Origin: Phytohabitans rumicis
Lineage (GTDB): Bacteria > Actinomycetota > Actinomycetes > Mycobacteriales > Micromonosporaceae
Length of the DNA stretch: 64,000 nucleotides
Assembly: GCF_011764445.1 (NCBI RefSeq)
Contig: NZ_BLPG01000001.1
Span: 1,426,001 to 1,490,000, forward strand
Reading direction: 5' to 3'
The notes beneath the pieces are model-generated. The model was not told the DNA's origin. It did not search any database and saw only the letters and a list, made by a program, of their open reading frames with translations. Both the position numbers and the translations under genes were made by a program. Position 1 is the stretch's first letter. Each line of letters opens with the position of its first letter. Positions 2,223 to 19,700 of the stretch are shown one piece after another.

Positions 2223-4751
2223 TCACGTCTGCGGTTGTGGGCCGCAGCCGGTCGCCCATAGGTTCTGTACGTACGTCGCAACTCGTCGCCGCAGGTCCTC
2301 GCTGCGCGACTCGGTGAGCAGACGCTCGGCCGTCGTTTCTGCCTCCTTGAGGCCGACCGCGTTAATCTTTGCCATAGCGAACCAGCGACTGTAGGCCGCA
2401 CGCGCCTCACCGAGTCGTCCGTCGACCCGCCGGTATGCCTCAATCGCCTGCCCATACCACTCGGCTGCCACGGCTGCCTCCCGTTGGCCGATAGCCGCAT
2501 CGCCAAGTCCGCGCAACACGCGCGCTCGTCCGAGGAGCCCGCCGGTTCGATCGAAAATCTGCAACGCGGCGTCATAGTGCTCCGCTGCTCGCTCGAGCTC
2601 CCCCAAGCCAATAAGGGCGTCTGCGTACAGCACCAGAGTATTCGCCTCGTGGTGCGGGCTGCCAACCGATCGGCACAGGGCGAGTGCCTGCTCAAGCCAC
2701 GCCAACGCCTGGCCGTACGTCCGCTGCCCACTGTGGAGCTCGCCAAGCGCGTTGAGGGTTCGGGCCCTTTCGAGCAGATCGCCGGCCTTCTCCAACTGCG
2801 ACAAGGCCGCCCGGAAACGCTCCTCTGCCACCTTCAGGTCTCCTTGCTGCAACGCGACCCGGCCCAGCGAGCGCAGCGTCTTCCCGTACCGCAGGTGATG
2901 CCCGTGGAGTCTGGCAATTTCCAGAGCCTCCTCGTACAGCGTCGTAGCCTGTTCGACCCGGCGCTGGCGCCGAGCGATATCCCCGAGAGACACCAACGCG
3001 CCCATGCGCTCCTCAACCTGCCCGAGCCGCTCCGCCACCTCCAGCTCGGCCCGGTAGTGCCGCTCCGCCTGATCAAGGTCGCCAACCCTCACCGCGATAT
3101 CGCCGAGCAGTTCGAGGGTGGCCGCCCGCCAGGTTGCATCGTTTCCGTCAAGACGCCCGATCGCGTTGGCGAGTAGCTGCGCGGCCTCGGGCAGGTGGCC
3201 CTGGTGAAATGCGATTCGTCCGGCGGCCTGCTCAGCATGGCCAACAATCTCTGGCGCCGTACGGGCGAGCCGGCCCACAACCTCAGGTGCAAGCAAGACG
3301 CTAGTAAGTGCCAGCACACTGCCAACCTTGTACGTCTCCAACGCTGAGCGCACACGGTCGCTCCACAACACCGCCAATGACATGTCGCCCGCAGCGAACC
3401 GGTGGTAAGTCTCCTCCAGGAAGGCCCCCTGAGCCGCGAAGTAGTGCGCGGCACGGTGGTGCAAAAGGTCGAGCTTCGTAGGTTCGTCGTGGCTTAGGTA
3501 CTCCAGCACGGCAACCCGCACCAGCTCGTGAACACGATTGTCCCGCCCACCGTCGACGCCGTACGAGGTCCGAACGAAGGATTGCTCAAGGAAGTCCGCG
3601 TACCAATGCGGATCGGTCAACGCTACGTCGTCAGCGAGCATGAATTCGATCGCCTCTTTCCGCACTGACCGCAGGGTCGCCGCCGCGAGGACGACCGCCC
3701 GCCGGTCAGCTGCCAACCTGCGCAGGAACTCCTGTGGCAGCCACTCACCGGCGAGCCGATTTCGGGACGCGGCAGCCAGCCACGCCTCCGAGATGTCCTC
3801 GCCGCGCTCCTGCTGGAGATCCGCCATCAGGCTTGTCCAAACAGGCACGCCGCGACAGTAGTCGTAGATCGCATCGGCGACGCCGGCCGCATCGATGCCT
3901 CGCCGGCGCAGGTACGCCCTGCTGTCCTCCCGGGTCCACTCGGTCAGCTCGACAGAGCGCACCTCGATCGATGTCGGGATCCGCACATCCTCACGGCCCG
4001 CGAGGACGATCTTGAGGTCCGGGACAGCCAGGCACAGCTGCGGGATTAGCTCGGCCACGAACCAATGCCGCACGGCCATCGTCGCCGGATCCATGACTGT
4101 GCTGTCATCGAGGTAACGCAGACGTTCCGTGGTATCGAAAAGCAGCACGACATTACGGCTTGGCAGACGGCGTACTGCTCGGGTCATAGCGGTCAGAAGG
4201 CCCCTGCGATAACTGGTCTGTTCGGAGAGGGTGCGCCGGCCATCTGTAGCGACCTTGATGGTCGAGCCGCTGATCTGCCCTCCCGTCTGGGCGTTCAAGG
4301 CGACGGATACCGTGTGCTGAGATGCCGCGCGGCGAACGCGACGTACCTGGCGGACAAAGCGGGCATGGCGGAACCTACACTTGATGCGACGAAAGCCCCC
4401 CGCGTCGAGCAGGACCTCGCTGATTCGGTGGACAACGACTTCCACCAGTTCAAACGAGGCCGCCCGTCGGTCATCGAAGTCGAGCAGCCCATCGAGATCT
4501 ATCAACACTCGTCGCTGGCCGGGCGGCGCCGAACGCACGAGTTGTCGCAATAGAGTCGATTTTCCCTGCCCTGCCAAGCCCCAGAAGATGAGTACCCTGC
4601 AGCGATCTTGGGTTGCGAACTGCGCAAACGCATCGAGGGCGGACTCGCGATCAGTGAACGCGTCGTCGCCGGTACCCTGGCGTTGGGTAGGTACCCCCAC
4701 ACGCATAGTTTTGCATGCTCGAATACCGAGTAACAGATTGCCGCCGCGCAT
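2223..4751 (-). CDS. Large P-loop ATPase with C-terminal TPR repeats (STAND-like)
   Basis: An 842-residue protein with a Walker A motif GLAGQGKST at residues 58-66 and a Walker B-like VVLLFD at 201-206, followed by a winged-helix-like stretch. From about residue 500 to 800 it has repeated helical pairs of TPR type (for example RIAFHQGHLPEAAQLLANAI and ALNALGELHSGQRTYGQALA). This layout fits STAND/NB-ARC or AAA-type signalling ATPases, which in actinomycetes serve as transcriptional regulators or defence sensors. No DNA-binding or effector domain is obvious at the N-terminus, which has only about 55 residues before the P-loop. An in-frame ATG at 4706 is an alternative start. It sits beside the CRISPR locus, but a defence role is inference. 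Confidence 0.75.
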   Translation of the reverse strand: MRGGNLLLGIRACKTMRVGVPTQRQGTGDDAFTDRESALDAFAQFATQDRCRVLIFWGLAGQGKSTLLRQLVRSAPPGQRRVLIDLDGLLDFDDRRAASFELVEVVVHRISEVLLDAGGFRRIKCRFRHARFVRQVRRVRRAASQHTVSVALNAQTGGQISGSTIKVATDGRRTLSEQTSYRRGLLTAMTRAVRRLPSRNVVLLFDTTERLRYLDDSTVMDPATMAVRHWFVAELIPQLCLAVPDLKIVLAGREDVRIPTSIEVRSVELTEWTREDSRAYLRRRGIDAAGVADAIYDYCRGVPVWTSLMADLQQERGEDISEAWLAAASRNRLAGEWLPQEFLRRLAADRRAVVLAAATLRSVRKEAIEFMLADDVALTDPHWYADFLEQSFVRTSYGVDGGRDNRVHELVRVAVLEYLSHDEPTKLDLLHHRAAHYFAAQGAFLEETYHRFAAGDMSLAVLWSDRVRSALETYKVGSVLALTSVLLAPEVVGRLARTAPEIVGHAEQAAGRIAFHQGHLPEAAQLLANAIGRLDGNDATWRAATLELLGDIAVRVGDLDQAERHYRAELEVAERLGQVEERMGALVSLGDIARRQRRVEQATTLYEEALEIARLHGHHLRYGKTLRSLGRVALQQGDLKVAEERFRAALSQLEKAGDLLERARTLNALGELHSGQRTYGQALAWLEQALALCRSVGSPHHEANTLVLYADALIGLGELERAAEHYDAALQIFDRTGGLLGRARVLRGLGDAAIGQREAAVAAEWYGQAIEAYRRVDGRLGEARAAYSRWFAMAKINAVGLKEAETTAERLLTESRSEDLRRRVATYVQNLWATGCGPQPQT

Positions 4752-4862
4752 GACAGCGCACAGGAGTCAGCCAGCGGGCGGTGTCAAGGGTCAGGACGAA
4801 GCGGCTCTGGCACGGTCTCGATGATCCGGGCGGTCGATGGTAGATCATGCCTCGTATCCATA

Positions 4863-5204
4863 GTGGAGCTTCCTGCGGTCTTCTTCCCGCGCCTGTCCGG
4901 GCTGCGTATCACGAACGTGCTGGCCAGGGGTGCGACGGTGCGAGTGCACGCCGAGACGAGCAGCGCCGCGGTGAGGTGTCCGGACTGTGCGACGCTGTCG
5001 CGGCGGGTGCACAGCCGGTACGAGCGGCGGCTGCTGGACGGTGCGGTCGCTGGCCGGGAGACCGTGCTGCACCTGCGCGTACGCCGGTTCTTCTGCACGT
5101 TCATCGGCTGTGTGCGCCGGATCTTCGCCGAGCAGATCGACGGCCTGACCGTGCGGCATGGCCGGTACAGCGAGCTGGCCAGGCGGATATTGAAGGCCGT
5201 CGCG
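4863..5204 (+). pseudogene. ISL3-family transposase, N-terminal fragment
   Basis: Reading from a GTG at 4863, about 114 codons match the start of ISL3 transposases: the PRLSGLRI start, a zinc-binding CPDC at residues 39-42, then RVHSRYERRLLDG, the second cysteine pair in FFCTFIGC, and EQIDGLTVRHGRYSELARRIL. The match stops after LKAVAW. The remaining three-quarters, including the catalytic DDE region, is missing. The next bases, TGGTCC at 5205-5210, are the last six bases of a CRISPR repeat, so the fragment is joined to the array inside a repeat. I see no terminal inverted repeats. It is a dead remnant. Confidence 0.8.
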
Positions 5205-8200
5205 TGGTCCAGAACGCCCCGCACGCGGCCATTTCGACCTCGCCTGCTCCCCGCGCACGCGGGGGTGGTCCCGCGACGCCGCTGCAATACCCGTCTGTGA
5301 CGCTCTGCTCCCGCGCACGCGGGGGTGGTCCCGTCGGCCACGGCGTCGGCGCAGGCTGTCTGAGCTGCTCCCCGCGCACGCGGGGGTGGTCCCGAGCGCG
5401 AGGCGAGCGCGTGGATCGATGCTCACTGCTCCCCGCGCACGCGGGGGTGGTCCGCGGTGCGGGTCCTCGACTTCGGCGACCAGCTCTGCTCCCCGCGCAC
5501 GCGGGGGTGGTCCCCAGGGCCACTGGGTTTCCAGCGCGCGGACGAGCTGCTCCCCGCGCACGCGGGGGTGGTCCCGAGTTCCAGCGTCCATGTACGTGCG
5601 GTGCCCGCTGCTCCCCGCGCACGCGGGGTGGTCCCGGGATCGGCGGGTTCGGGTCGCCGCCAGTGTCCTGCTCCCCGCGCACGCGGGGGTGGTCCCTCGC
5701 CAAGCACGCCTCCGGGCTGCTCGGCTTGCTGCTCCCCGCGCACGCGGGGGTGGTCCCATGGCTGGAATGGGTCCACCACCCAAGCCGGACTGCTCCCCGC
5801 GCACGCGGGGGTGGTCCCCTCTCGCGGCCTCGCGCCGCGGTCGGATCGACCTGCTCCCCGCGCACGCTGGGGTGGTCCCCGCCAATGTCACCCTAGGGGA
5901 GTGGTTGCGGTCTGCTCCCCGCGCACGCGGGGGTGGTCCCCTCATGGCGACGCACGGACCGTCCGATGCGGACCTGCTCCCCGCGCACGCGGGGGTGGTC
6001 CCCGGGCGGATGGGCAGCCGTACGTCCCGGTAGCCTGCTCCCCGCGCACGCGGGGTGGTCCCCGTTCCGCCTCGGCCGTGCAGGGCGGCCAGGTCTGCTC
6101 CCGCGCACGCGGGGGTGGTCCGGAGTTGATGGAATCGGCCAGCCACTTGATTAGCTGCTCCCCGCGAACGCGGGGGTGGTCCGGTCGCGCCGAACGTCCG
6201 CGCGGCCGGGATCGCCTGCTCCCCGCGCACGCGGGGGTGGTCCCCGGAGGTGCGGCGCTGCCCGTCCAGCGCACCACTGCTCCCCGCGCACGCGGGGGTG
6301 GTCCGGGCTGCCGGCGATGCCCCGGAGACGAAGACCCTGCTCCCCGCGCACGCGGGGGTGGTCCCCGTCTCGCTGCCCGGCTGGGCGACACGCCAATCTG
6401 CTCCCCGCGCACGCGGGGGTGGTCCTCGCAGGCCAGCAGTGGACCCGGCCCTGGGCGTCTGCTCCCCGCGCACGCGGGGGTGGTCCTTGGGGCCCGAATT
6501 CCTGGAAGCGTGGGGGTATCTGCTCCCCGCGCACGCGGGGTGGTCCCTTCCTCGGCGCCACCGACGGACTCGCCGACCCCTGCTCCCTGCGCACGCGGGG
6601 GTGGTCCCACCGACACGAGCATCGTGGGGTGGCACCTCATCTGCTCCCCGCGCACGCGGGGGTGGTCCGGCCAACGCCGTCCAGCAGGAAGCGCGCGGCC
6701 TCTGCTCCCCGCGCACGCGGGGGTGGTCCCCGAAGTCGGTCTTCGCGCCGTTGCGGTTGCAGCTGCTCCCCGCGCACGCGGGGGTGGTCCTCGGTCGGGC
6801 CGTTGACCGCGTCATCGAGCCATCTGCTCCCCGCGCACGCGGGGGTGGTCCGGACAGCCGAAGGTGTGGGGCAACGGACTCGACCTGCTCCCCGCGCACG
6901 CGGGGGTGGTCCCCGGCGCCCCAGCGCGTGCTTCGCGAGTTGAACCTGCTCCCCGCGCACGCGGGGGTGGTCCCTAGGGAGCCCAAAGGTGGAGCACAGA
7001 GAGCCTCTGCTCCCCGCGCACGCGGGGGTGGTCCCGCGGCCCGGAACGGCGCGGTGATGATGCCGGCCTGCTCCCCGCGCACGCGGGGGTGGTCCCGCCC
7101 AGGACTTCTGGTTAGGGGTGAGGAACTTCGCCTGCTCCCCCGCGCACGCGGGGGTGGTCCCGTCGCGCGCGCTTCCTCCGCTGCCCCGCTTCCTGCTCCC
7201 CGCGCACGCGGGGTTGGTCCCATGAACCCAATGTGCAGATGCATATTCAGTCCCTGCTCCCCGCGCACGCGGGGTTGGTCCCGTGGTCTCCGATCTCCGC
7301 ATGGCAACCTTCCTCTGCTCCCCACGCACGCGGGGTTGGTCCCCTGACCATCTCGGATCCGACGGTCACGCCTTCCTGCTCCCCGCGCACGCGGGGTTGG
7401 TCCCCCGCAGCGGTTCACGGTAAGCAGCGACGCGGTCTGCTCCCCGTGCACGCGGGGTTGGTCCGTGTCCACCCTGCACGCGATCGTCTCCCGCCTGCTG
7501 CTCCCCGCGCACGCGGGGTTGGTCCCAAGGCTCCGTGGCTGGCCAAGGCCGACGAGATCTGCTCCCCGCGCACGCGGGGTTGGTCCCGAGGCGTCGGCCC
7601 ACGTCTGGAAGATGACCGACTGCTCCCCGCGCACGCGGGGTTGGTCCCCCCTAGCGCCCGGCTCTCTACCCCCCGACCGCTGCTCCCCGCGCACGCGGGG
7701 TTGGTCCCTGTCCGCGTGAGCTGGGAAAAGTCGCCATCGGCGTCCTGCTCCCCGCGCACGCGGGGTTGGTCCCGACACCTGGCGGGGCCTGTCCTCGGCC
7801 GGTGTCTGCTCCCCGCGCACGCGGGGTTGGTCCCGAACCTGCCGGGGACCACCAACTGGCCCATCCTGCTCCTGAGCACGCGGGGTTGGTCCCGAGCCCA
7901 CCCGGATGTTCAATGTTGGTGCCATCTGCTCCCCGCGCACGCGGGTTGGTCCCCCGTTCGCCAGCTCCTCCCGCTGCGCCTTCTCCTGCTCCCCGCGCAC
8001 GCGGGGTTGGTCCCCGTGGATCGCGGCCGACTGGCTGCGCCTGCACCTGCTCCCCGCGCACGCGGGGTTGGTCCCCCGCACAAGACCCACGGGCACTTCC
8101 AGGTGTACTGCTCCCCGCGCACGCGGGGTGAGTCCCGAGACAGCGCCAAGCGCGTGCTTGAACAGCAGCTGCTCCCCGCGCACGCGGGGTTGGTCCGGCC

Positions 8201-9350
8201 GCGGCCCGGGCCAAGGTGGACAAGGCCCGCTGCGCCCCGCGCACGCGGGGTTGGTCCCTACTCGCCGTAGGCGAGGATGGGCCCGGCGCGCTGCTCCCCG
8301 CGCACGCGGGGTTGGTCCCTCGGGGAACTTCTTCGATCTGGTGCTGGACGCTTGCTCCCCGCGCACGCGGGTTGGTCCCGGAGCGGCTTGCTGGCGCCGC
8401 CGAGGCGGCGTCTGCTCCCTGCGCACGCGGGGTTGGTCCCAGCCTCGGTGGCTCCAACGGCATGATGCGGCTCTGCTCCCCGCGCACGCGGGGTTGGTCC
8501 CGGGTCTCATCGGAAGTATTTCTTCGCATTTCCCTGTTCCCCGCGCACGCGGGGTTGGTCCAGTTGCTCCTGCTCGCCCAGCATGAACATGTCGCTGGTC
8601 CCCGCGCACGCGGGGTTGGTCCCCGTCCCCGTGGCGGTCACGACCTTGACGGGGGCTGCCCCCGCGCACGCGGGGTTGGTCCCTCGCCCTGGTGGCGGTT
8701 CAGCTCGATCCGAACTGCTCCCCGCGCACGCGGGGTGGTCCCGCTACAAGCGGCGCGTACGCACCGCCCTGTACCTGCTCCCCGCGCACGCGGGGGTGGT
8801 CCCGTTGTGGGCACACCTCGTAATGGACCGGAGCGCTGCTCCCCGGCGCACGCGGGGGTGATCCGTGGCACAGCCGATCGCGGAGGTCCCGGGTCATCTG
8901 CTCCCCGCGCACGCGGGGGTGGTCCCTCGTCTTCGACATCCTGGAGTGCGACCCAGCCCTGCTCCCCGCGCACGCGGGGGTGGTCCCTTTCGCGGGGAAC
9001 GGCTCGTTTCTGGTCCCCTGCTCCCCGCGCACGCGGGGGTGGTCCCGCGGCAGCCAGGTCACGGCCCGCCTCGCGTAGCTGCTCCCCGCGCACGCGGGGG
9101 TGGTCCTGGGGCGGCCGAATCGTCGCATTCAAGAACGGCGTGCTCCCCGCGCTCGCGGGGGTGGCCTCTAGCGACCCGAATCACACGGTTAGTCCGATTG
9201 GCGCTCCCCGCGCTCGCGGGGGCGGTCCCCGAAGACGCGCAACCACTCGTGGCCGAAGGAGTGCTCCCCGCGCTCGCGGGGGTGGTCCCCGGGCCTGGCT
9301 CGGGCGAGTGGTGCGGTACCTCCGCTCCCACACACACGGGGTGATCCCAC
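5205..9350 (+). CRISPR. Type I-E-like CRISPR array, about 68 repeats, leader end lost
   Basis: The repeat is 28 nt and recurs every 61 bp on average. It begins CTGCTCCCC, has the hairpin core CCCCGCGCACGCGGGG and ends TGGTCC; a 29th base is usually C but is G, T or A in a minority. The first whole repeat starts at 5244 and the last recognisable, degenerate one near 9322. Spacers are about 33 nt and all look unique by eye; one, at 7709-7744, is 36 nt. Compared with the known E. coli I-E repeat orientation, transcription runs on the plus strand, so the leader should lie left of 5244. Instead there is a 33-nt spacer (5211-5243), a six-base repeat stub, then the ISL3 fragment. Degenerate repeats from 9140 onward mark the old, leader-distal end. 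Repeat variants occur in blocks. No cas genes are present in the window, so activity depends on Cas proteins encoded elsewhere. Confidence 0.97.
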
Positions 9351-9614
9351 GACACGGACCGTACTTCCACAGCGACACACCACAGCAAAGTTCACCGTCG
9401 GCAACAGCTGACGACCGCGGCAACTCGCGGCCCGCCACAACCAGCGGGCCGCGAACACCTGTCACATCGGGGCCCAGCCAGCCCGAAAGCGTGCAGCGCG
9501 CGGCCCGCCGTCTGACCGGTCGTTCGAGCCCCGAACCCGCGGATTAAGAGCGCGAGGACCTGCATCAAGCCCGATAGCGCCACCCGTTGAGGGTCGGCCG
9601 CGTATGAGGACGCG
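9351..9614. other. Intergenic region between CRISPR array and immunity gene
   Basis: I see no credible gene here. The only structured element is the inverted repeat at 9426-9453, described separately. Confidence 0.5.
9426..9453 (+). terminator. Strong stem-loop downstream of the CRISPR array
   Basis: CGCGGCCCGC at 9426-9435 pairs perfectly with GCGGGCCGCG at 9444-9453 around an 8-nt loop. There is no clear U-tract, as is common in GC-rich actinomycetes. It could end the pre-crRNA transcript or the convergent transcripts from the toxin locus. Confidence 0.5.
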
Positions 9615-9944
9615 TCAGGTCATTTGTCTGGTTGCAAGATAGCTATCCAGTACACGCAGTAGCTCCTCACTGGCCGGGCCTTCTAGCTCGCCTGGAATCG
9701 CGGCAGCGCCGGACTCGTCCAAAATTGTAGGAAAGATTTTCGACGCCACGATCACTGACCAGTGAAAGCTAGATTTCTGTCCGAGAGTATGGGTTGCTAC
9801 CCACTCATTGAACCCTGCCAAAAGCTTCCAGTCAGTCGCGGCGTTGCAGCCCTCGATGAAGGCAACCAGCGTGTGGAACCTGTCGTCAGGCAGGTACATC
9901 CTCGGACGCATGCCGAGCTGCTTAAACAGGTCACGAAAATCCAT
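9615..9944 (-). CDS. Probable immunity protein for the RHS toxin
   Basis: A 109-residue soluble protein starting MDFRDLFKQLGMRPRMYL. I chose the ATG at 9944 because it lies two bases after the RHS stop codon; an upstream in-frame start would overlap the RHS gene. The protein has an RPRMYLPDD motif, a central FIEGC segment and a tryptophan-rich patch; such small acidic proteins with an RPxMYL motif occur among uncharacterised neighbours of polymorphic toxins. Position is the main evidence: immunity genes typically follow directly after the variable toxin tip. The exact immunity family is not recognised. Confidence 0.65.
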   Translation of the reverse strand: MDFRDLFKQLGMRPRMYLPDDRFHTLVAFIEGCNAATDWKLLAGFNEWVATHTLGQKSSFHWSVIVASKIFPTILDESGAAAIPGELEGPASEELLRVLDSYLATRQMT

Positions 9945-9946
9945 CG

Positions 9947-12900
9947 TTAGAATCCAAAGTTGATATAAGGGGCATTCTCGCCCCACTGGGCTTTGTATTG
10001 AGAAGGCGCTAGTCCGCTTGAACCCGTGGTCCCATCATATACACGACCATCCTTGACCACAGCATAGTGCTCAAACCATGTCCCATTCGGATCGTGAGTC
10101 GATGCGCCGAGTCTCGGGGCACCACGGGGAGTGATGTGCACGATGTCTCCGCCTATTCTACCCTGAATCCGCGTCGCACACTCATGGCAGTTTCCGCCTT
10201 GCTGACGTGGCCACGTGAATCCTGAACCGCCGCCCGGAGCAGGCGGGCAGTTATGAACCAGGACGGGTGTGTCGCCGGCTATCACGTAGTACGTGTGTAT
10301 GTCATCGACCGAGAGGGTGTAGGCGCCACCCACGTGAGCACTGGTCCATGAAATGCCGTCGACGGCGGCAGGGGCTCCGTTACCAGTGTAAAGGTGGTCG
10401 CCGGGGCTCAGTTGCTGGGCCTGCTGCCACTGCTTGGCGGTTTCGTTCCAGAATGGATGGTCTTCGGTCGTGGTGAGGACTTCGCCGTTTGCCAATTCTA
10501 GGGCGACAAGCTGGTCTTCGTGGACCCACAGGTAGGTGACAGTGCGTGGGCCCTGCTCGTCGGTTTCAGGATCGGTGGCAAGGACCTCATCCCCGACTCT
10601 AATGTCTCTGATTGGTTTCGTGGTGCCGTCGGCCATTAGCACTTCGGTGTCGCCGCTGAAGCTGCACGCACCTCCCGCACCAACGACACCCGGGCGGACG
10701 TAGCCGGTCAGTGCGCCGACGCCTGCTGCGCCTAGCAGGCTTCCCGTTGCGTAGAATTCGCCGGTGCCAGCGACTGCTGCCACCCAACACCCCGGCGTCA
10801 GAGCGCAGCTCATCCCGAGCACTATCGTGCCTACGAGTAAAAAGTTTTCGAGCGCGCTACGTTCGGGCAAGAATGGGTTGTTGTTCGCGCAGTGGTCCCA
10901 GTCACCGAGTTGGTAGATCCACGTGCAAACGTAGGCCCAGTTATCAGGATATTGCCCCGAAAACTCGAGGAGTTCGCGGTTGGTGAACGCTTTGGATCCG
11001 GTATACCCCCGGACGTCGAGGGAGTACGCGTGATCGTCGCCTATGTCGTTGGGCATATCCAGAACGTCGTCGATGGTTGGTGGTCCTTCGCAGGCGTTGG
11101 CGGAGCCGCACTGCCTGGGTGGGCGCTCGAGCTGTCTGTCGTCGCAGGTGGATTGGGTGAGACAGAGCCCGGTTGGGTCACTGGAGGTGACCGGTGTGTT
11201 GTTGGCGTAGGCGTAGGCGTTCCACTGTTGTGGGTTGGCGAGGTCCATGATCGGGTCGACGGAGATGAACCTGCCGGTGGTGGGGTCGTATTCGCGGGCG
11301 CCGAGGTGGACGAGCCCAGTGGGGTCGTTTTCACCGCCGACATAGCCCTTCGGATTCGGCCACGAGGTTGGGACGGTGCCACGGGGGGTGCCGAACGGGG
11401 TTTGCCGACGTTGTGAGACAGCGTTGCTGGCGGTGTTGATCGAGATGAGATTGGTGGCTTGGTGGTCGGTAACCAGCCAGCTCAGGCCGGTGGCGGTGCG
11501 GCTCGCGACGGTGGCGCCGGCGTGGCTGTAGTAGCGGGTGACGGTTTTGGTTGCGGCGCTGGTGGTGTATCGGATTTCTTGGCCGGGCAGGTAGAGGGTT
11601 TTGCCGGTGGCGTCGCGGCGGATGAGTCGGTTGCCGCCGGCGTCGTAGAGGTAGGAGCTGGCGCCGCTGGGGTCGCTGGTGGTGGCGAGTTTGCCCTCTT
11701 GGTCCCAGGTGAGGGTTTGGGTGCCGCCGTTGGCGGGCCGGGTGAGGGTGTTGCCGGTGTTGTCGTATGTGTAGCTGCTAGTGGTCGAGCCGGTGGTGAT
11801 CGTGCTGACAGCGTGGGGCTTGTTCGCGGTCGGGCCGGAGGTGGGATGGGTGTAGCTGGTAGTGATGTTTCCGGTGGATCTGTGGTCGACCTGTTCGGTG
11901 CGATTGCCGATCTTGTTGATAGTCCAGGTCAGCCAGTAGGGGGCCGGGCCGCCAAGGCCGGCGGTGGTGGGCGTGGTGGTGCAGTTGTCGCTAGCAGGTG
12001 TCCAGGCTTGGGTGAGGCGGCGTAGGTGGTCGTAGGTGAAGCATTGGTTGTCGGGAGTGCCGATGGCGTCGCGGATTTTGGTGATGTTGCCGGCGTGGTC
12101 GTAGCTGTAGTTGACGTCGGCGAGGTTGTACGGGGCGGCGGTGTCCCGGCTGACGATGTTCTGGGTGACGCGGCCGGTTTCTAGTTCGCGGTTGTAGGTG
12201 AGGTGGGTGTTGTGCCCGACCTGGTCGCACTGGTTGGTGCACAGGTTGTGTTGCTCGACCTGGCCGAGGTCGTCGTAGTGGGTGGCGTTGACGTAGTCCA
12301 GGTGAGTCAGGCCGTAGGTGGTCGTTAGGGCGGTGGGTAGGCCGAGGTCGGTGTACTCGTGGTGCAGGGTTTCGGTGGGTAGGTCGGTGCCGGCGGCCTG
12401 GATGAAGCTGGTGGTGGCGAGGCTGCCGTTGGGGTTGTAGGTGTACTGGTACTGGTAGGTGCCGGCCAGCCCGGTCTCGGTGTCGGGGATGACGACCTGC
12501 ATGGCTTCGGGTTGGTAGTCGTCGCTGTAGTCGGAGATCCGGGTCTCGTAGGCGACACCGCCGCTGCCGCTGCGCACGGACGCGTATAGCTGGCCTTTGG
12601 CGGTGAGGTCGTAGCTCCAGGCGGCGCGGGGTACGCCGAGGGCGAAGTTCTGGTAGACGCCGATCGTGCGGTTGATGGCGTCGTACTTGTAGACCAGCTT
12701 GATGTTGCGGGCGTCGACGGTGGTGCTCAGCCTGCCGCCGGCGTCGTAGGTGGACGTGGTTCTGCCGCGGTCGGGGTCTATCTCGACGGTTTTGAAGCCA
12801 CGGATGTTGTACTCGTACGTCCAGGCGTTGCTGGCCGGGTCGGTGACCCCGATGAGCTGGCCTTTGCGGTTGTAGCTGTAGGTGGTGACGTCGCCGCTGT

Positions 12901-15900
12901 TCCAGGCGGTCAGCCGCGGGTACTGCCACAGTTGGGTGGTGCGGCCTCGGGCATCGGTAACGGTGGAGGTGCCGGTGCCGCCAACTGGTGGCGTGATGTC
13001 GGTGCGGTCGCCGGCGTAGTAGGTGGTGGTCCGCCACCGTTCCACGTTGTACGGCTCGAAAATGTGGGCGACAGCACGGCCGGCGCCGTCGTAGACGGCC
13101 CGGTTCTGGGTGGGGACGTCCAGGGGCTGGACCGGCACCTGCAGGGTTGGGGTGGTGGCCGGCAGGGCGGTCGCGTTGTAGTAGGCGCTATAGGTTACTT
13201 TCTCCCGGCCGGCGGTGTCGTAGAAGGTGTTGGTCAGCAGCCGCCCGCCGGCCGCGGCGGGTGAGGCCGCCTGGGTTTGCACCTGGCGTAGGAGTCCGTC
13301 GTAGAGGGTGTGGCTGGTGACGTAGTTGCCCGGCATGCCGGGGTCGTTGCCGTTCGGGCCGAGGACCTTGGTGGTGACCACGGACGGTGCGGTCTTGCTG
13401 ATGGTGTAGCTGTAGACGGCGTTGGCCGTGTGGACGTCCTTGGTGCGGCCGGGTTTCCAGACCGCGATGAGCCGCCCGAGCGGGTCGTAGGCGAGGTCGG
13501 TGCGTTTGAGGTTCGGGTCGACCACAGCGGTCGTCGATCCCCAGGCCGGCGAGAGCTCGGTGACGGTTTCATGATCGGCCGCGTTCGTCACCTTGACCGC
13601 GGTGACCGGGCCGCCGGTCGCCGGCGTGTACGCGGTATCCGTGGCGTTGGTGTTGGCATCGATCGTCTGGGTGACCCGGCCGTGTGCGTCGTACGTGGCC
13701 TGTGTCGTGGTGACGTAGGTGGGGGTGCCAGCGTTCCACGCCGTCATCTCCTCCACCTTGGTCGGGTTTGCCTTGGACGGTGCGGTTCCATGGGCGGGAG
13801 CGTTGTCGTAGGTGGTCTTGGTGTCGGAGATGACGTCCGCGTCGACCAGCGAGGTCGGGGTGCCCGCGGCGGTGCAGGAGACGGCGAAGACCTGGCCGCG
13901 GTGCACCGCGGTGAGCAGCCACGCGGTGGTGTTCCGAGGTTCGTAGGTGGTCTTGGCGCATTGCTCGTCACCGGCGACGCCGTCCTGGCCGAAGTCGTCG
14001 ACCTGGATCGGCATACCGAACCCGTCAAATGTCGTGGTGGTCCTGGTGACCCGTTCGCCGCGGCCAGCGTCGAGCGCGACGCGGTTTTTGACGGTGGCGG
14101 TGTTGGTGAACCGGGCGGTGACGGTGTCGGTGTTGATCGTTCGGGTCGCGGTCGGGCCGGATGCCCACGGGTCGTTGATAGTGCCAGAGACTTCGGGGCC
14201 GCCGGGGCCGTTGAAAGTGATCTGTTCGCGGGTCATGCCGGCAAACCAGTCCTCGTCGGGCCAGGTGCCGCCTTTGGAGTCGGTGATGTTGACGGTGCGG
14301 GTACCGGAGGGTTGCTTATCGCCGTGCATGCCGCGGAAGTAGCGGGTTTCGGCGTAGGTGAGCGGGTCACCGCGGTCGGGGTCGCCGGTCGTGACGCCGA
14401 CCCGTGCGTAGCCACGCCAGCCGGACCAGGTTTTGTAGGCGGGTTTGATGATGCCGTCGTCGTCGTTGTAGTGCCAGGCCGGGCTGTCCAGGTAGCTGTA
14501 GCGGGTCAGCGTGTGCGAAGCGCCGGCCACCATGTCGGTTTCGCGGACCTGTTCGACCACGTATTTGTGGAACCAGTCGGTGATCGGTGTGGTCTGGCCG
14601 TCGGGGATCCACTTGACCGGGTAGCAGCGCCGGTCGTTGTTGTGCACGGCCGGTTCCGCACCGCCGTCGGTGCAGTCCGCGTCGCTGTAGACGATGGAGA
14701 TGGCGCCGCCGGTTTCGGTGTCGATGCGGACCAGCCGGTGCCAGGCCATGGCAGCGATGTTGTCGATGCCGTCGACCCGGTTGTCCAGGGACAGGCTGGT
14801 GAACGTGACGTCCGGAAGGCTCGCGGTGCCGCCGACCAGACCGGTGTGGCTGATCTTTTCCAGCCATAGTCCGGCCTGGGTGGTGTCGCCGGGGTCGGGG
14901 AAGCCGTGGGTCAACGTCCAGCGTTCGACGTTGTCGTAGCCGCCGCCGCTGTTGCGGATCTGGGTGGTGATGGTGGCCAGCCGGCGGGTGGACCAGAACG
15001 TCGGGCTGACCGTGTCGCAGGAGGTGGCCGTGGCGGCGCATTCCAGGTCCCACGGGGTGTCCGGCCAGTGCGTGCCGTCGTGGGTGGCGCAGGAGGTCAG
15101 GCACCGGTCGGTGGTGCCGAAGACGACCTTGGCGGTGGCGGTGCCGGCGAAGACGGTGTCCGGGCTCGTTTCGGTTTCGCGGCGGGTGCCGTACGCGATC
15201 TGTGTCAGGTAGCCGCCCCGGCTGTAGCCGATGTCGTCGGCGGGTGTGTTGTTGCGGCCGTATTTGTTGGTCTCGGCGGTGTACCAGTAGGAGGCCGAGT
15301 TGCCGTGCAGGTCGACGACGTAGTCCAGGTTCCACCGCCACGCCTGCACACAGTCCGAGTTGGCGTAGGTGGTGGCGTGGCACGGTTCGTCGTCGTGGTT
15401 GCCGAACACCGGAGTGGTCCAGGTCGAGTTGGTGACCGGGTTCCCGGACGCCCAGCCGGGCAGCTTGTGCTTGCCGAACCAGTACTGGGTGCCGCTGGTG
15501 CTGGTGACCACCCAGTACTCGCCGTCGTTGTCTCCGTTGTCCGCCCCGGTCTCCCGCCGGACGCGGGAGCCGTCGTCGTTGCGCAGGTGCCAGCGTCCCT
15601 CGGTGCTGTTGTAGATGAGCTCGCTGCTGGTGCCGTTGAGGTTGAGGACCGCGTTGTAGTTGGCCCAGCACAGGTCGCCGGTCTTGACCGTGTTGTTCGG
15701 CGCGGTGTCGTTGGGGCCGCCGTCGTCCATGTCGTCGGAGCAGGACCGGTAGCCGCGTTCGATGTATCCGCCGGGCCAGGCGTCGAACCCGCCACCGGCC
15801 CACGCGGGCTGGTTGTTGGAGGCTGCGTGCCGGCCGTCGACGGCCTGCGAGTTGTAGTTCAGCGCGACGCTCGGAGCGAGCCCGCCGGGAACCGGTGGAA

Positions 15901-16726
15901 CGCGCATGGGGTAGGCCCAGGTGAACGCGCCCGAGTTGCCACCCGCCGACCACGTGGACGAGGGCTGCAGGGCGGTGGCGGTGAAGTCGCCGGACGGCCC
16001 GGACGGGTCCGCGTCCAGCGCCAGCAGTGATCCGGTGGTCGATGCGGCAGGGATGGTGGCGGTGACGAGGCTGGAGCCGGCGTGGTTCCGAGACGACGGG
16101 ACCGGTTGGGGTGCGCAGGCCGGCTTTTCCGGGGTGGCCAGGGCGCATTCGGGCAGCTGGTACATCCGCAGCCGGGACGCCCAGCTCGCCCCGTACGCGG
16201 TGCGGAAGGCCCGGTAGTCGACGGTGACCGCCGCCTGGCCCCCGGCCGCGGGCGCGCTGGTCGGGCTGACCCGCAGCAGCAGGCCGTCAACGCCCGCGCG
16301 GGCTGTGGCGGCCCGGTCATACACGTGCACCGTCACCCGCGCCGGGGCGGTCTTGCCGATACCGGGATGGTCAACCAGCACCGGCAGCGTCCCGGCGCGT
16401 GCCGGTCCCCGGGCCGTAGCCCTCTGGTCAGCGGCGGCTGGGAGTGTCACCTCGGCGGTGCCAGCGCTCGGCCAGACCGGCGCCGGCGCGTCCAACGCAC
16501 TGGGCACGACGGCCGCGGGCGCGGTCTCGGCCTTCACCGTGGTGACCGGGACGCTCGGCACGTCCTTCACGGCCGGCGGCGTGTAGGGGGCCGGTTTCGC
16601 GACCGCGGGCGCCTGCCCGAACCCGAGGGCGAGGACGAGGGTCACAGCCGCCGCGGTGGCGGCGCGCAGCCGCCGCCGGGTCCGGATCGGCCTGAACGGA
16701 TACGTCGACGACGGGCGTGGTCTCAC
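9947..16726 (-). CDS. RHS-repeat polymorphic toxin with HINT domain and papain-like toxin tip
   Basis: About 2259 residues, starting at a GTG preceded by GGAGG six bases away. The N-terminus has an Arg-rich start and a hydrophobic signal segment ending APAVA. Next come an all-beta region typical of actinobacterial RHS proteins (SYGASW...GGLAPSVALNYN), many YD repeats (YDPLGRL, YDAGGRL, YDNTGN) and the RHS core ending REYDPTTGRFISVDPI and DPTGLC. After a hydrophobic stretch, residues 2021-2159 form a HINT (intein-like) domain beginning CSFSGDTEVL and ending VLVHN, followed by Cys; this layout is known to release the tip by self-cleavage. The final 100 residues hold NCHECA (Cys about 2180) and HYAVVKDGRVYDG (His about 2220), resembling papain-fold toxins, probably a deamidase or peptidase. 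It is secreted and acts in contact-dependent competition by inference. The next gene is the probable immunity gene. Confidence 0.88.
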   Translation of the reverse strand: MRPRPSSTYPFRPIRTRRRLRAATAAAVTLVLALGFGQAPAVAKPAPYTPPAVKDVPSVPVTTVKAETAPAAVVPSALDAPAPVWPSAGTAEVTLPAAADQRATARGPARAGTLPVLVDHPGIGKTAPARVTVHVYDRAATARAGVDGLLLRVSPTSAPAAGGQAAVTVDYRAFRTAYGASWASRLRMYQLPECALATPEKPACAPQPVPSSRNHAGSSLVTATIPAASTTGSLLALDADPSGPSGDFTATALQPSSTWSAGGNSGAFTWAYPMRVPPVPGGLAPSVALNYNSQAVDGRHAASNNQPAWAGGGFDAWPGGYIERGYRSCSDDMDDGGPNDTAPNNTVKTGDLCWANYNAVLNLNGTSSELIYNSTEGRWHLRNDDGSRVRRETGADNGDNDGEYWVVTSTSGTQYWFGKHKLPGWASGNPVTNSTWTTPVFGNHDDEPCHATTYANSDCVQAWRWNLDYVVDLHGNSASYWYTAETNKYGRNNTPADDIGYSRGGYLTQIAYGTRRETETSPDTVFAGTATAKVVFGTTDRCLTSCATHDGTHWPDTPWDLECAATATSCDTVSPTFWSTRRLATITTQIRNSGGGYDNVERWTLTHGFPDPGDTTQAGLWLEKISHTGLVGGTASLPDVTFTSLSLDNRVDGIDNIAAMAWHRLVRIDTETGGAISIVYSDADCTDGGAEPAVHNNDRRCYPVKWIPDGQTTPITDWFHKYVVEQVRETDMVAGASHTLTRYSYLDSPAWHYNDDDGIIKPAYKTWSGWRGYARVGVTTGDPDRGDPLTYAETRYFRGMHGDKQPSGTRTVNITDSKGGTWPDEDWFAGMTREQITFNGPGGPEVSGTINDPWASGPTATRTINTDTVTARFTNTATVKNRVALDAGRGERVTRTTTTFDGFGMPIQVDDFGQDGVAGDEQCAKTTYEPRNTTAWLLTAVHRGQVFAVSCTAAGTPTSLVDADVISDTKTTYDNAPAHGTAPSKANPTKVEEMTAWNAGTPTYVTTTQATYDAHGRVTQTIDANTNATDTAYTPATGGPVTAVKVTNAADHETVTELSPAWGSTTAVVDPNLKRTDLAYDPLGRLIAVWKPGRTKDVHTANAVYSYTISKTAPSVVTTKVLGPNGNDPGMPGNYVTSHTLYDGLLRQVQTQAASPAAAGGRLLTNTFYDTAGREKVTYSAYYNATALPATTPTLQVPVQPLDVPTQNRAVYDGAGRAVAHIFEPYNVERWRTTTYYAGDRTDITPPVGGTGTSTVTDARGRTTQLWQYPRLTAWNSGDVTTYSYNRKGQLIGVTDPASNAWTYEYNIRGFKTVEIDPDRGRTTSTYDAGGRLSTTVDARNIKLVYKYDAINRTIGVYQNFALGVPRAAWSYDLTAKGQLYASVRSGSGGVAYETRISDYSDDYQPEAMQVVIPDTETGLAGTYQYQYTYNPNGSLATTSFIQAAGTDLPTETLHHEYTDLGLPTALTTTYGLTHLDYVNATHYDDLGQVEQHNLCTNQCDQVGHNTHLTYNRELETGRVTQNIVSRDTAAPYNLADVNYSYDHAGNITKIRDAIGTPDNQCFTYDHLRRLTQAWTPASDNCTTTPTTAGLGGPAPYWLTWTINKIGNRTEQVDHRSTGNITTSYTHPTSGPTANKPHAVSTITTGSTTSSYTYDNTGNTLTRPANGGTQTLTWDQEGKLATTSDPSGASSYLYDAGGNRLIRRDATGKTLYLPGQEIRYTTSAATKTVTRYYSHAGATVASRTATGLSWLVTDHQATNLISINTASNAVSQRRQTPFGTPRGTVPTSWPNPKGYVGGENDPTGLVHLGAREYDPTTGRFISVDPIMDLANPQQWNAYAYANNTPVTSSDPTGLCLTQSTCDDRQLERPPRQCGSANACEGPPTIDDVLDMPNDIGDDHAYSLDVRGYTGSKAFTNRELLEFSGQYPDNWAYVCTWIYQLGDWDHCANNNPFLPERSALENFLLVGTIVLGMSCALTPGCWVAAVAGTGEFYATGSLLGAAGVGALTGYVRPGVVGAGGACSFSGDTEVLMADGTTKPIRDIRVGDEVLATDPETDEQGPRTVTYLWVHEDQLVALELANGEVLTTTEDHPFWNETAKQWQQAQQLSPGDHLYTGNGAPAAVDGISWTSAHVGGAYTLSVDDIHTYYVIAGDTPVLVHNCPPAPGGGSGFTWPRQQGGNCHECATRIQGRIGGDIVHITPRGAPRLGASTHDPNGTWFEHYAVVKDGRVYDGTTGSSGLAPSQYKAQWGENAPYINFGF

Positions 16727-16773
16727 CGGGAACCTCCGTGGTCGGGGGCCTGGGGGTGGCAGGACAAAGGGGG

Positions 16774-19700
16774 TTAGCTGGTGACGGGGTGCAGCAGCAG
16801 GCCGCGGCCGTCGGCGATCACGGGATGGCGGTAGCCGTATTGGACGGCTTGGGTGCCGTCGGCGTTTTCGACGCCGACGGTGGCTTCGCCGCCTTGTTCG
16901 TAGAAGTTGACGTCGATGTCGTCCCACACGATCTCGATGTCGCCCTGCTCGTGGAACACCGCCTCGAAGCTGACCCGGGCGTTCGGGTCGGCCAGGCTGT
17001 ACACGTTGCGCCACTCCACGATGAATCGCCGGTTCGGGGCGGTCCCGGTGGTCGCGGTGCGGATACTGGCGGAGGCGTCAAGGACCCAGTCGTGCTGGAA
17101 CGGGTACACCGCCGTGTTCGGGTGGCTGCTCTCCCACTCCGAGGGCAGCGGCCACGGGTCGTAGGGCTGGTTGGTCATCGCCTCGAACGCGATGACGCCG
17201 TCGTTGGCGATCCACGCCGTCGGGTACGACTGGCCATACAGCGCGACGGGGAACGGCAGGGTCACCTCCTGGATGCCGTCGTCGCCGCTGGAGGGCAGCA
17301 CGGTGTCGTTGGCCGGCACGAACGTGCGCGGTCCTTCGACGGCGGTGTAACGCGTGCCGGACGACGCGGGTAGGTCGAAGTCCACCGTGGACGTCGCGTT
17401 CCCGGACACCGTCACCGGCTGGGCGGCCGTGCCGTAGCAGCCGCTCCCCGTCCCCGGGGTGGCCAGGACCGTGTACGGGCCTCCCGGCACGTCCCCGAAC
17501 AGGTAGCTGCCGTCGGCTGCGGTGGTGGCGGTCAGCCCGGCAACCTTCACGCTCACCCCCGCCGCTGGTGTGCCGGCGTAGGTGACGGTGCCGGTGATGT
17601 CACCGATCGGCGCCGGCCCCGGCGTGAACCGCACCCCTTGGCCGCTGGCGATGACCGGCTGCTGGTAAGAGTGGACCAGGGCGAAGGTGCCGTCGGCGTT
17701 CTCGATCGCCACCGCCCCCGCCGCACCCTGCTCGCGTGCGACGCCGGGGTCGATATCGTTCCAGGCCACCTGGATGTCGCCGCCCTCGTGGAAGACCGCC
17801 TCGAAACTGACCCGCGCGGTGGGTTCCCACCAGTTGTGCACATTGCGCCACTCGACGATGAACTGCCGGTGGGGTGCGGTGCCGAGGGTGGTGGTGCGGA
17901 TGCTGGCGGAGGCGTCGACGACCCAGTCGTCCCAGAACGCGTAGACAGCGGCGTTGGGTTTGGTCTGCTCCTGCAGCGAGGGCAGCTCGGTGGCCTGCCA
18001 CGGGATCCCGGTGTAGGGGGCGAACGCGACCAGGCCGTCGATGTCCACCCACGCGGTCGTGTACGACTGCCCGTACAGGGAGATCGGGAACGGTACGGTC
18101 ACCTGCGTCTTGCCGTCGTCGCCGGACAGCGGCAGGACGGTGCCGTTGGCCGGGGTGAATGCGGCCGGCCCGGCCTGGCACATGTTGCCGTACGCATCAG
18201 ACAGCGGCCGCAAAGGTAGGTCCACGTCGGCGGTCTCGTAGACATCGACGTCGAGGTTGAGGACCTTGCCGCAGTGGTTGCCCTTGACCGCGGACACCGT
18301 GTACGAGCCGGCCTCGATGTCAGCGAACGCGTACCCACCCGCGGCGTCGGCTGTGACGGAGATCCCCGCGGGCTCCAGGGTCACGGCGGTGCCCGCCTGG
18401 GGGCTGCCGGTACCGGCGTCGGTCACCGTGCCGGCGAGGGTAACCATCTGGATCGGGTTGGCCATGATCTGCGGCGGCAGGAACACCACCGCGCTGCCGT
18501 CGGCCAGGACCGGTTGCAGGAACGAGTACTGCAGGCCCACCGTGCCGCCGGGGCTTTCGATCCCGACTGTCGCCTCCGACCCACGCTCCGCGTCGCTGGT
18601 GGCGCTCAGACCGGCGTAGTTGAGGAAAATGAAGCCGGCCTCGTGAAGCATCACCTCCACGGTGATGCGCTCGCTGGTGTTGCCGGCGCGGTGCACGTTG
18701 CGCCACTCCACCACGAACCAGCGGCCGTCAGCATCGTCGATGCTGGCGGTGCGGACACTGGCCGACCCGTCCACGACCAGGTCATCCCAGAACGCCGCGA
18801 CCAGGCCGTTCGGCGCCGACGCGGCCGGGATCGTCATCGAACGCCCCGGCGTGGAGCCGCCCGGCTCCGTGAACGTCAACAACCCGTTGGTGTCCACCCA
18901 GACGGTGTCGAACACGTCGCCGTAGAACGGGAACTCGAAGGGCAGCGACACCTGCGTGACCGCGTTGTCGGCGCCGGCCAGGGCTTGCAGCACGGTGTCA
19001 TCGGCTGGAGTGAACGCCCTGGCATCCACCTGGCAGCCGTATCCGTAACTGTCCACGGGTGGAACCAGGAACAGTTCAGGGTCCCCGTCATCCGGAATCT
19101 TCACCTCGGTGCTGGCCGACAGGCCGCAGCCGCCGCCATGCGAGGCCGCAACGACGTACGTGCCCGGCGTCAGCCCGGTGAACGCGAACGCCCCGTCGGC
19201 GCCGCTGGTCACGGTCAAGCCCGGCGGTTCAAGGATCACCGTGGCCCCAGCCAGCGGCTGCCGAGCTTGGTCGAAGGTACGGCCGGACAGCCCCACGGTG
19301 GCGGCCTCGACCTGGATTGTTGCGGAGACCGACTCGCCGAGCAGGTTGTCGGCCTGATTGAACGCCGCCACCCACACTCTGAGCTGTCCGGTCTGCGTGG
19401 TCGGAATCGCCACCGGCGGAGTGGTCGTCCCGCCCGGTGTGGCGGGGTCGGCGGTCAGGTTCAGGGTGTCGGTGCCGATGCTGTACTTGAACTTGGTGAT
19501 GTTGGTGTCGCCGCCCGCGTTGAACGTGACCTGCGCCGGGCTGCCCACCGTCACGGTCGCGGTGGTGAAGGCGACCTGGGGCTTGACCGGCCGGGCGAGG
19601 TCCTTGATCGCGGCCGGGGACGGGATGAAGTTGTACATGCGTACGTCGTCGATGGCGCCCTTGAGGTAGTCGACGTTCAGGGCGGTCCACCGGCTCCGGC

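Follow-up and report, generated by a model that had tools for sequence, protein, structure and literature searches.

An apparently leaderless type I-E CRISPR array bordered by a truncated ISL3-family transposase gene in Phytohabitans rumicis

The array, its flanks and the ISL3-type fragment

The window analysed here, i.e. the whole stretch of 64,000 nucleotides (C1:1426001-1490000), belongs to a Phytohabitans rumicis genome of 10.7 Mb, assembled in three contigs and 96% complete. Its left part contains a long CRISPR array, which is preceded by the gene for an ATPase and by the remains of an insertion sequence (IS), and followed by the gene for a large RHS-repeat protein (Table 1). The array is of type I-E, with a repeat of 28-29 nt, a period of about 61 nt and spacers of mostly 32-33 nt. 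The commonest repeat form, CTGCTCCCCGCGCACGCGGGGGTGGTCC, is present in 28 copies. Counting the one left of repeat 1, there are 68 spacers, of which 54, the leader-most one included, measure 33 nt and nine measure 32 nt; no pair among the 68 has 16 or more bases in common.

Table 1. Features of the P. rumicis locus and of the type I-G arrays of the same genome (window positions unless marked C1).
Feature	Position	Strand	Remarks
842-aa ATPase, left flank	2223..4751	-	Pfam: weak AAA/nSTAND matches, TPR repeats
Outer 21-bp element end, TGTCAAGGGTCAGGACGAAGC	4782..4802	+	same outer end aligned in G004, in G106 and in the other P. rumicis remnant
Inner ISL3-type terminal sequence, GGCTCTGGCACGG	4803..4815	+	
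Truncated ISL3-family transposase	4821..5204	+	about the first 117 of the 526 aa of full-length relatives
TGGTCC, 3'-terminal hexamer of a lost CRISPR repeat	5205..5210	+	junction at about 5203-5205
Leader-most surviving spacer	5211..5243	+	33 nt
Type I-E CRISPR array	5244..9347	+	68 repeats, mostly 28 nt
2355-aa RHS-repeat protein with HINT domain, right flank	9947..17014	-	Pfam
First type I-G array (L002)	C1:1356664-1364898		114 repeats
Second type I-G array (L003)	C1:1379266-1382793		47 repeats

Specifically, repeats 1-32 are of the ...GGGGGTGGTCC type, repeats 33-57 of the ...GGGGTTGGTCC type and repeats 58-64 again of the ...GGGGGTGGTCC type with small variants, and a 36-nt spacer and a 29-nt repeat mark a block edge at 7096-7160. 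This three-block mosaic could have arisen from a fusion of arrays, or from a repeat mutation that swept through the array and was later reversed. The degenerate state of the last four repeats (65-68, 9139-9347) places the trailer on the right and, therefore, the leader end on the left. Decay in repeats 1-32 is slight, with three repeats carrying a substitution and six a change in homopolymer length, so that either the loss of the leader end and cas genes is recent or some constraint on the array remains. Repeats 2, 7, 14, 15 and 22 lack one base of a run of C or G, and repeats with a G run shorter by one base were also seen in an array of Phytohabitans suffuscus (L040); these forms are due either to sequencing error or to real slippage.

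When compared with the loci fetched from relatives, including the cas operon of P. suffuscus, the 68 spacers gave short matches only (at best 17 exact bases, or 21 of 23), and in the fetched P. rumicis loci and the window the best self-target measured 16 bases. The two spacers searched against a phage collection, one of them the leader-most, found no match there. As for the flanks, the ATPase has no full-length counterpart in the five congeners, the partial matches, chiefly to the TPR region, reaching at most 36% identity.

The protein encoded immediately left of the array matches the ISL3 zinc ribbon (Zn_ribbon_ISL3, PF14690; E 5e-12) and the IS fragment belongs to the ISL3 family. The frame of this stub is open from an ATG at 4821; the start codon of the relatives in G004, G005 and G236, which is GTG, corresponds to 4854, and the window has GTA at 4854-4856. 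The full-length transposases of these three genomes measure 525-527 aa, so that about a fifth of the protein remains in the window, and the IS portion left before the junction corresponds to approximately the first quarter of the element. A full-length relative matches both transpos_ISL3 and DDE_Tnp_ISL3 above cut-off; the DDE part is absent from the window fragment. Immediately next to their inner ends, members of the ISL3 family produce a target duplication of 8 bp. In the window the right end is lost; among relatives, duplications of 8 bp at the inner ends and of 5 bp at the outer ends are both seen. The genome has a further terminal remnant of this element, 111 bp long, at C1:3786877-3786987 (L007), and scoring of 40 of 247 candidate places revealed no other long copy of the fragment.

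The junction itself was delimited from both sides. On the array side, the first TGGTCC lies 61 nt upstream of the TGGTCC of repeat 1 (5266-5271), the intervening 33-nt spacer keeping the exact 61-nt register. Outside the array this hexamer occurs at 20 of 59,800 window positions, and the chance of meeting it in register at this one place is therefore about 3e-4. Base 5204 is a G, the same as in the repeat, and the suffix in common may thus extend to 7 nt. On the IS side, the DNA alignments of three of the eight compared relatives reach 5203 and those of the others stop earlier, while in the protein alignments six relatives end at the residue encoded by nt 5202-5204 and one extends two residues more. 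Past 5203, the DNA alignments show the relatives continuing into the transposase and the window entering TGGTCC. The open frame of the stub crosses the junction into the region of the first spacers and repeats, with a stop at 5298-5300. The preliminary description of this DNA had reported TGGTCC in register before the leftmost spacer, and an N-terminal ISL3 transposase ending abruptly before it, and both observations are borne out; it had begun the element at 4863, and here the ISL3 identity stands and the start gives way to the outer and inner ends of Table 1. In conclusion, our data confirm that the left edge of the array is the end of a repeat cut at the ISL3 fragment, and place it to within a base or two.

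Leader, cas genes and the arrays of congeners

No leader was recognisable at 5000-5204, a stretch of ISL3 sequence, and the array has no conserved leader directly before its first repeat. The commoner of the two leader types of P. suffuscus (G005) had no match in the P. rumicis genome, compared with four matches in G005 and one in another congener (G001), and the second type, searched in the 135 kb around the array, gave no convincing match. These results support the earlier proposal that the leader was lost. The companion proposal, that the neighbouring cas genes are gone, is supported for Cse1, Cas6e and Cas7e, each with no match in the whole genome in a search that was positive in two of 14 control genomes for each family (Thermus and Deinobacterium; E. 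coli negative). The search took in these three families and Cas1, and, the genome being 96% complete, a cas gene could be missed. The sole Cas1 match sits in a type I-G locus, beside Cas3g, Csb2 and Csb1 matches that are above their cut-offs; it fits the Cas4g/Cas1g model best, yet stays below the cut-off of that model (459.8 of 560 bits). All 57 repeat matches in the genome, allowing up to 3 mismatches, fall in the array described here, and no second array with the same repeat was found within that limit. The missing part had been proposed to be either deleted or moved; since the rest of the genome has no sequence within 3 mismatches of the repeat, deletion is favoured and relocation is not.

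A near match to the repeat is present in five of the six Phytohabitans genomes, P. rumicis included, with only two matches in G002 and only one in G003. The most complete picture comes from P. suffuscus (G005, NZ_AP022871.1), which has five I-E arrays, each behind a leader and with a repeat identical or almost identical to that of P. rumicis. Four of these leaders are of one type, ending in ...CCCGCAGGTCAG.AAG.C, and the fifth is of another type that appears, by eye, to be common to G001. The array with the identical 28-nt repeat (12 copies) adjoins an I-E cas operon, and the repeats of the others differ by one base. The operon comprises the C-terminal part of Cas3, Cse1, Cse2, Cas7e, whose frame also gives a Cas5 match, and Cas1, together with two further ORFs that have no Pfam match. 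Among the six genomes, only G005 gave a Cas7e match. In G001, which is 89% complete, I-E arrays with leaders occur, yet Cas7e has no match; a leader by itself, therefore, does not imply cas genes. A further copy of the I-E leader was seen in G001 (L167, G001:C1:5047403-5047489), at a site that has no hit to the repeat pattern when as many as 2 mismatches are allowed; this leader is perhaps paired with a different repeat variant.

The type I-G locus provides a common landmark for the two genomes. In P. rumicis it consists of Cas4/Cas1, Cas3g, Csb2 and Csb1 genes between two arrays with 36-nt repeats (Table 1), and its syntenic region (C1:1365129-1379026) is 82-83% identical to that of G005, in the same direction, over 13.7 kb of aligned sequence (blocks of 8.5 and 5.2 kb). 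In both genomes I-G arrays stand on both sides of the I-G cas genes, the second array being opposite in direction between the two, and I-E arrays lie past the same end of the locus, with one extra I-E array on the other side in G005. A gene for a 1516-aa SEFIR/TIR-CHAT-TPR protein, possibly a defence gene, is found near the I-G arrays of P. rumicis (L003:12435-16985, minus strand). The two species therefore resemble each other in the identical 28-nt repeat, carried by one array of G005, and in the nearness of a type I-G locus; they differ in that G005 has five leaders and an I-E cas operon, none of which was found in P. rumicis. Taken together, these data indicate that the P. rumicis array is most likely a fossil, apparently a relic of a type I-E locus that has neither leader nor cas genes.

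Proposed history of the array

We consider it likely that a chromosomal I-E array lost its leader-proximal end and its cas genes through the insertion of an IS and a subsequent deletion. An ISL3-family element would have inserted to the left of the array or within it. A later deletion, presumably one and not several, would have started in the transposase gene and stopped at the 3' end of a repeat; the remainder of the IS, the leader and some of the youngest repeats would have been lost with it, so that the stub came to adjoin TGGTCC. The I-E cas genes may have gone in the same event or in another. The order of these events is presumed, and the array would probably now be inert for both acquisition and interference. 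At most one or two bases are in common at the junction, which therefore looks like a product of illegitimate recombination. In addition, neither leader nor repeat is recognisable left of 4782. The IS was therefore probably located outside this array, and simple insertion into one of its repeats does not agree with this sequence.

Alternatively, the array may have arrived already headless, as a transferred or rearranged fragment, at a site that never held a complete locus. We regard this as improbable, although several features of the surroundings are compatible with it. The left-flank gene has no full-length counterpart in the five congeners, and about 48 kb separate the I-E array from the nearer I-G array, which ends at C1:1382793, compared with 7.9 kb from the second I-G array to the nearest I-E array in G005. 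From C1:1388000 on, the intervening DNA gave one 258-bp match to 100 kb of G005 and no other, and three of the 10 ORFs scanned in it are transposases (two with an integrase core, one of the IS4/5 type). The position of the I-E arrays and the I-E cas operon in G005, past the same end of the syntenic I-G locus, speaks against such an arrival.

Loss by insertion and deletion was also weighed against three explanations that we judge to have very little chance of being right. Transfer of the leader-side half to another site, through recombination of copies of the IS, is very unlikely: the 111-bp terminal remnant offers a second copy of the element, but elsewhere the genome contains neither the repeat, at up to 3 mismatches, nor a match to the leader used in the search. 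Nor is it at all likely that an ISL3 copy was falsely joined to the array during assembly, even though the array is long and repetitive and several of its repeats vary in homopolymer length, because the join is in register, a similar join exists in the genome G105, and no other long copy that could confuse the assembler turned up among the places scored. Continued use of the array, with transcription starting at the IS end or at a cryptic promoter and with Cas proteins provided in trans, could draw on the direction of the IS fragment, which points into the array with its frame open across the junction, and on the good preservation of the leader-side repeats, but is scarcely credible given that the three I-E signature families have no match, that the resident I-G system uses a different, 36-nt repeat, and that a sigma-70 scan of 4600-5260, a kind of scan that is weak for actinobacteria, found no promoter-like match. 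The preliminary description had suggested that a promoter in or near the IS fragment might serve the array, and this is kept as a hypothesis.

ISL3 elements at other CRISPR arrays

DNA matches to the ISL3 fragment, mostly short, were obtained in 142 of the 300 family genomes. Those of at least 300 bp represent, besides the window, at least nine copies in eight genomes (G004, G236 with two, G005, G113, G106, G120, G105 and G209); about two candidates were scored per genome, and more copies may exist. Two of the nine, in G105 and G209, lie in I-E arrays, and the other seven showed no I-E repeat in the 13-20 kb around them. In G209, a full-length ISL3 element, whose N-terminal frame differs from that of its relatives, sits inside a repeat with the 5-bp duplication GGAGC, and a leader-like sequence is present at the far end of the array. 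The I-E array of G105 (L084, reverse complement 3565-10571) has a leader-like start and is broken twice. The first break is an element with IS21 IstA and IstB and an IS5-type transposase, inserted in a repeat with the duplication ATGGT; the second is an ISL3 stub that begins within a repeat, after about four bases, and passes into a partial spacer. Right of the IS21-type element, ATGGTCC followed by a 33-nt spacer and a repeat forms an edge like that of the window; in G105, however, the repeat is directly adjoined by the end of the IS. In both genomes ISL3 is thus an insertion within an array, and in the congener the flank on the leader side of the arrays is a leader, which argues against ISL3 sequence as their normal flank.

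The ISL3 fragment alone found no relative in the reference genomes. An alignment of four transposases gave 433 loci, the best 80 of which, including the G004 and G005 copies, were scanned for repeats and arrays. Nine were flagged and two stood on inspection: L105, where degenerate I-E-like repeats abut the IS, and L113, where an I-E-like array lies about 0.5 kb from it. As cases of ISL3 at an array, L096, L104, L106, L115, L145 and L150 were rejected, each showing a single weak match only, and the supposed CRISPR array at L135 is another tandem repeat. These data suggest that the association of ISL3 with I-E arrays recurs, in a small sample in which the arrays may be just tolerant targets.

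In several ISL3 relatives the inner ISL3 end is bordered externally by an outer end of 21 bp (TGTCRACG...GAAAACT). A script assigned both inner ends in 49 loci; 12 of these scored as having an inverted outer pair, three of them with identical 5-bp flanks; the assignment is imperfect, and L145, L151 and L154 among the 12 rest on misplaced ends. Permutation of the right flanks gave means of 4.1 pairs and 0.07 identical flanks, with none of 500 permutations exceeding two. In L088 the script misplaced the ends, but identical 5-bp flanks were found separately; L090 and L085 are below the pair threshold, yet their 5-bp flanks are identical. Six loci have 7-9-bp duplications at the inner ends instead. 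Two-tier ends, with a 21-bp TG...CA outer sequence and 5-bp duplications, were observed in L088, L089, L090, L094, L100 and L085, and other ISL3 copies have 8-bp duplications at their inner ends. By eye, the outer end resembles the end of the IS21-type element of G105, TGTCAGCTCCGCGTGAAAACT, and the whole may be a composite unit that IS21-type ends mobilise. We put forward, as a doubtful but conceivable extension, that an actinobacterial ISL3 clade captured between IS21-like TG...CA ends may move as a unit, with 5-bp duplications, and may repeatedly hit I-E repeats (in G105 and G209, and possibly in both P. rumicis and Solihabitans fulvus), breaking arrays and setting up deletions that behead them.

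Known orphan CRISPR arrays and remnants are likewise repeat-spacer arrays for which no cognate cas operon is found in the genome, and in Haloquadratum walsbyi HBSQ001 the loss of a locus, leaving only a CRISPR remnant, has been inferred (PMC3119063). In contrast to these, the lost edge in the window is set to one or two bases, at an IS fragment, and 68 repeats survive. The disabling of CRISPR-Cas systems by IS transposition is also known: 163 natural IS insertions into cas genes have been described, in a paper that also refers to earlier findings of IS in CRISPR loci (PMC10359306). The subject of that paper is cas genes, and the term ISL3 is absent from its main text, whereas in the window the IS stands at the leader end of the array and is itself cut by a deletion. 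Among the literature matches listed, the titles and the first lines of the abstracts contain nothing on this ISL3 element in CRISPR arrays or on Phytohabitans CRISPR loci. An orphan CRISPR array broken by an IS is a known and ordinary kind of locus, here unusually well resolved.

The P. rumicis locus represents a nearly base-resolved case of array freezing, in which the young end was lost at an IS and the old end was kept. Length and tidiness of an array do not show that the system works, and an array without its leader does not reveal which is the 'newest spacer'. If the recurrent association between an ISL3 element with IS21-type ends and I-E repeats is true, this element would stand out as a particular cause of CRISPR loss in actinobacteria.
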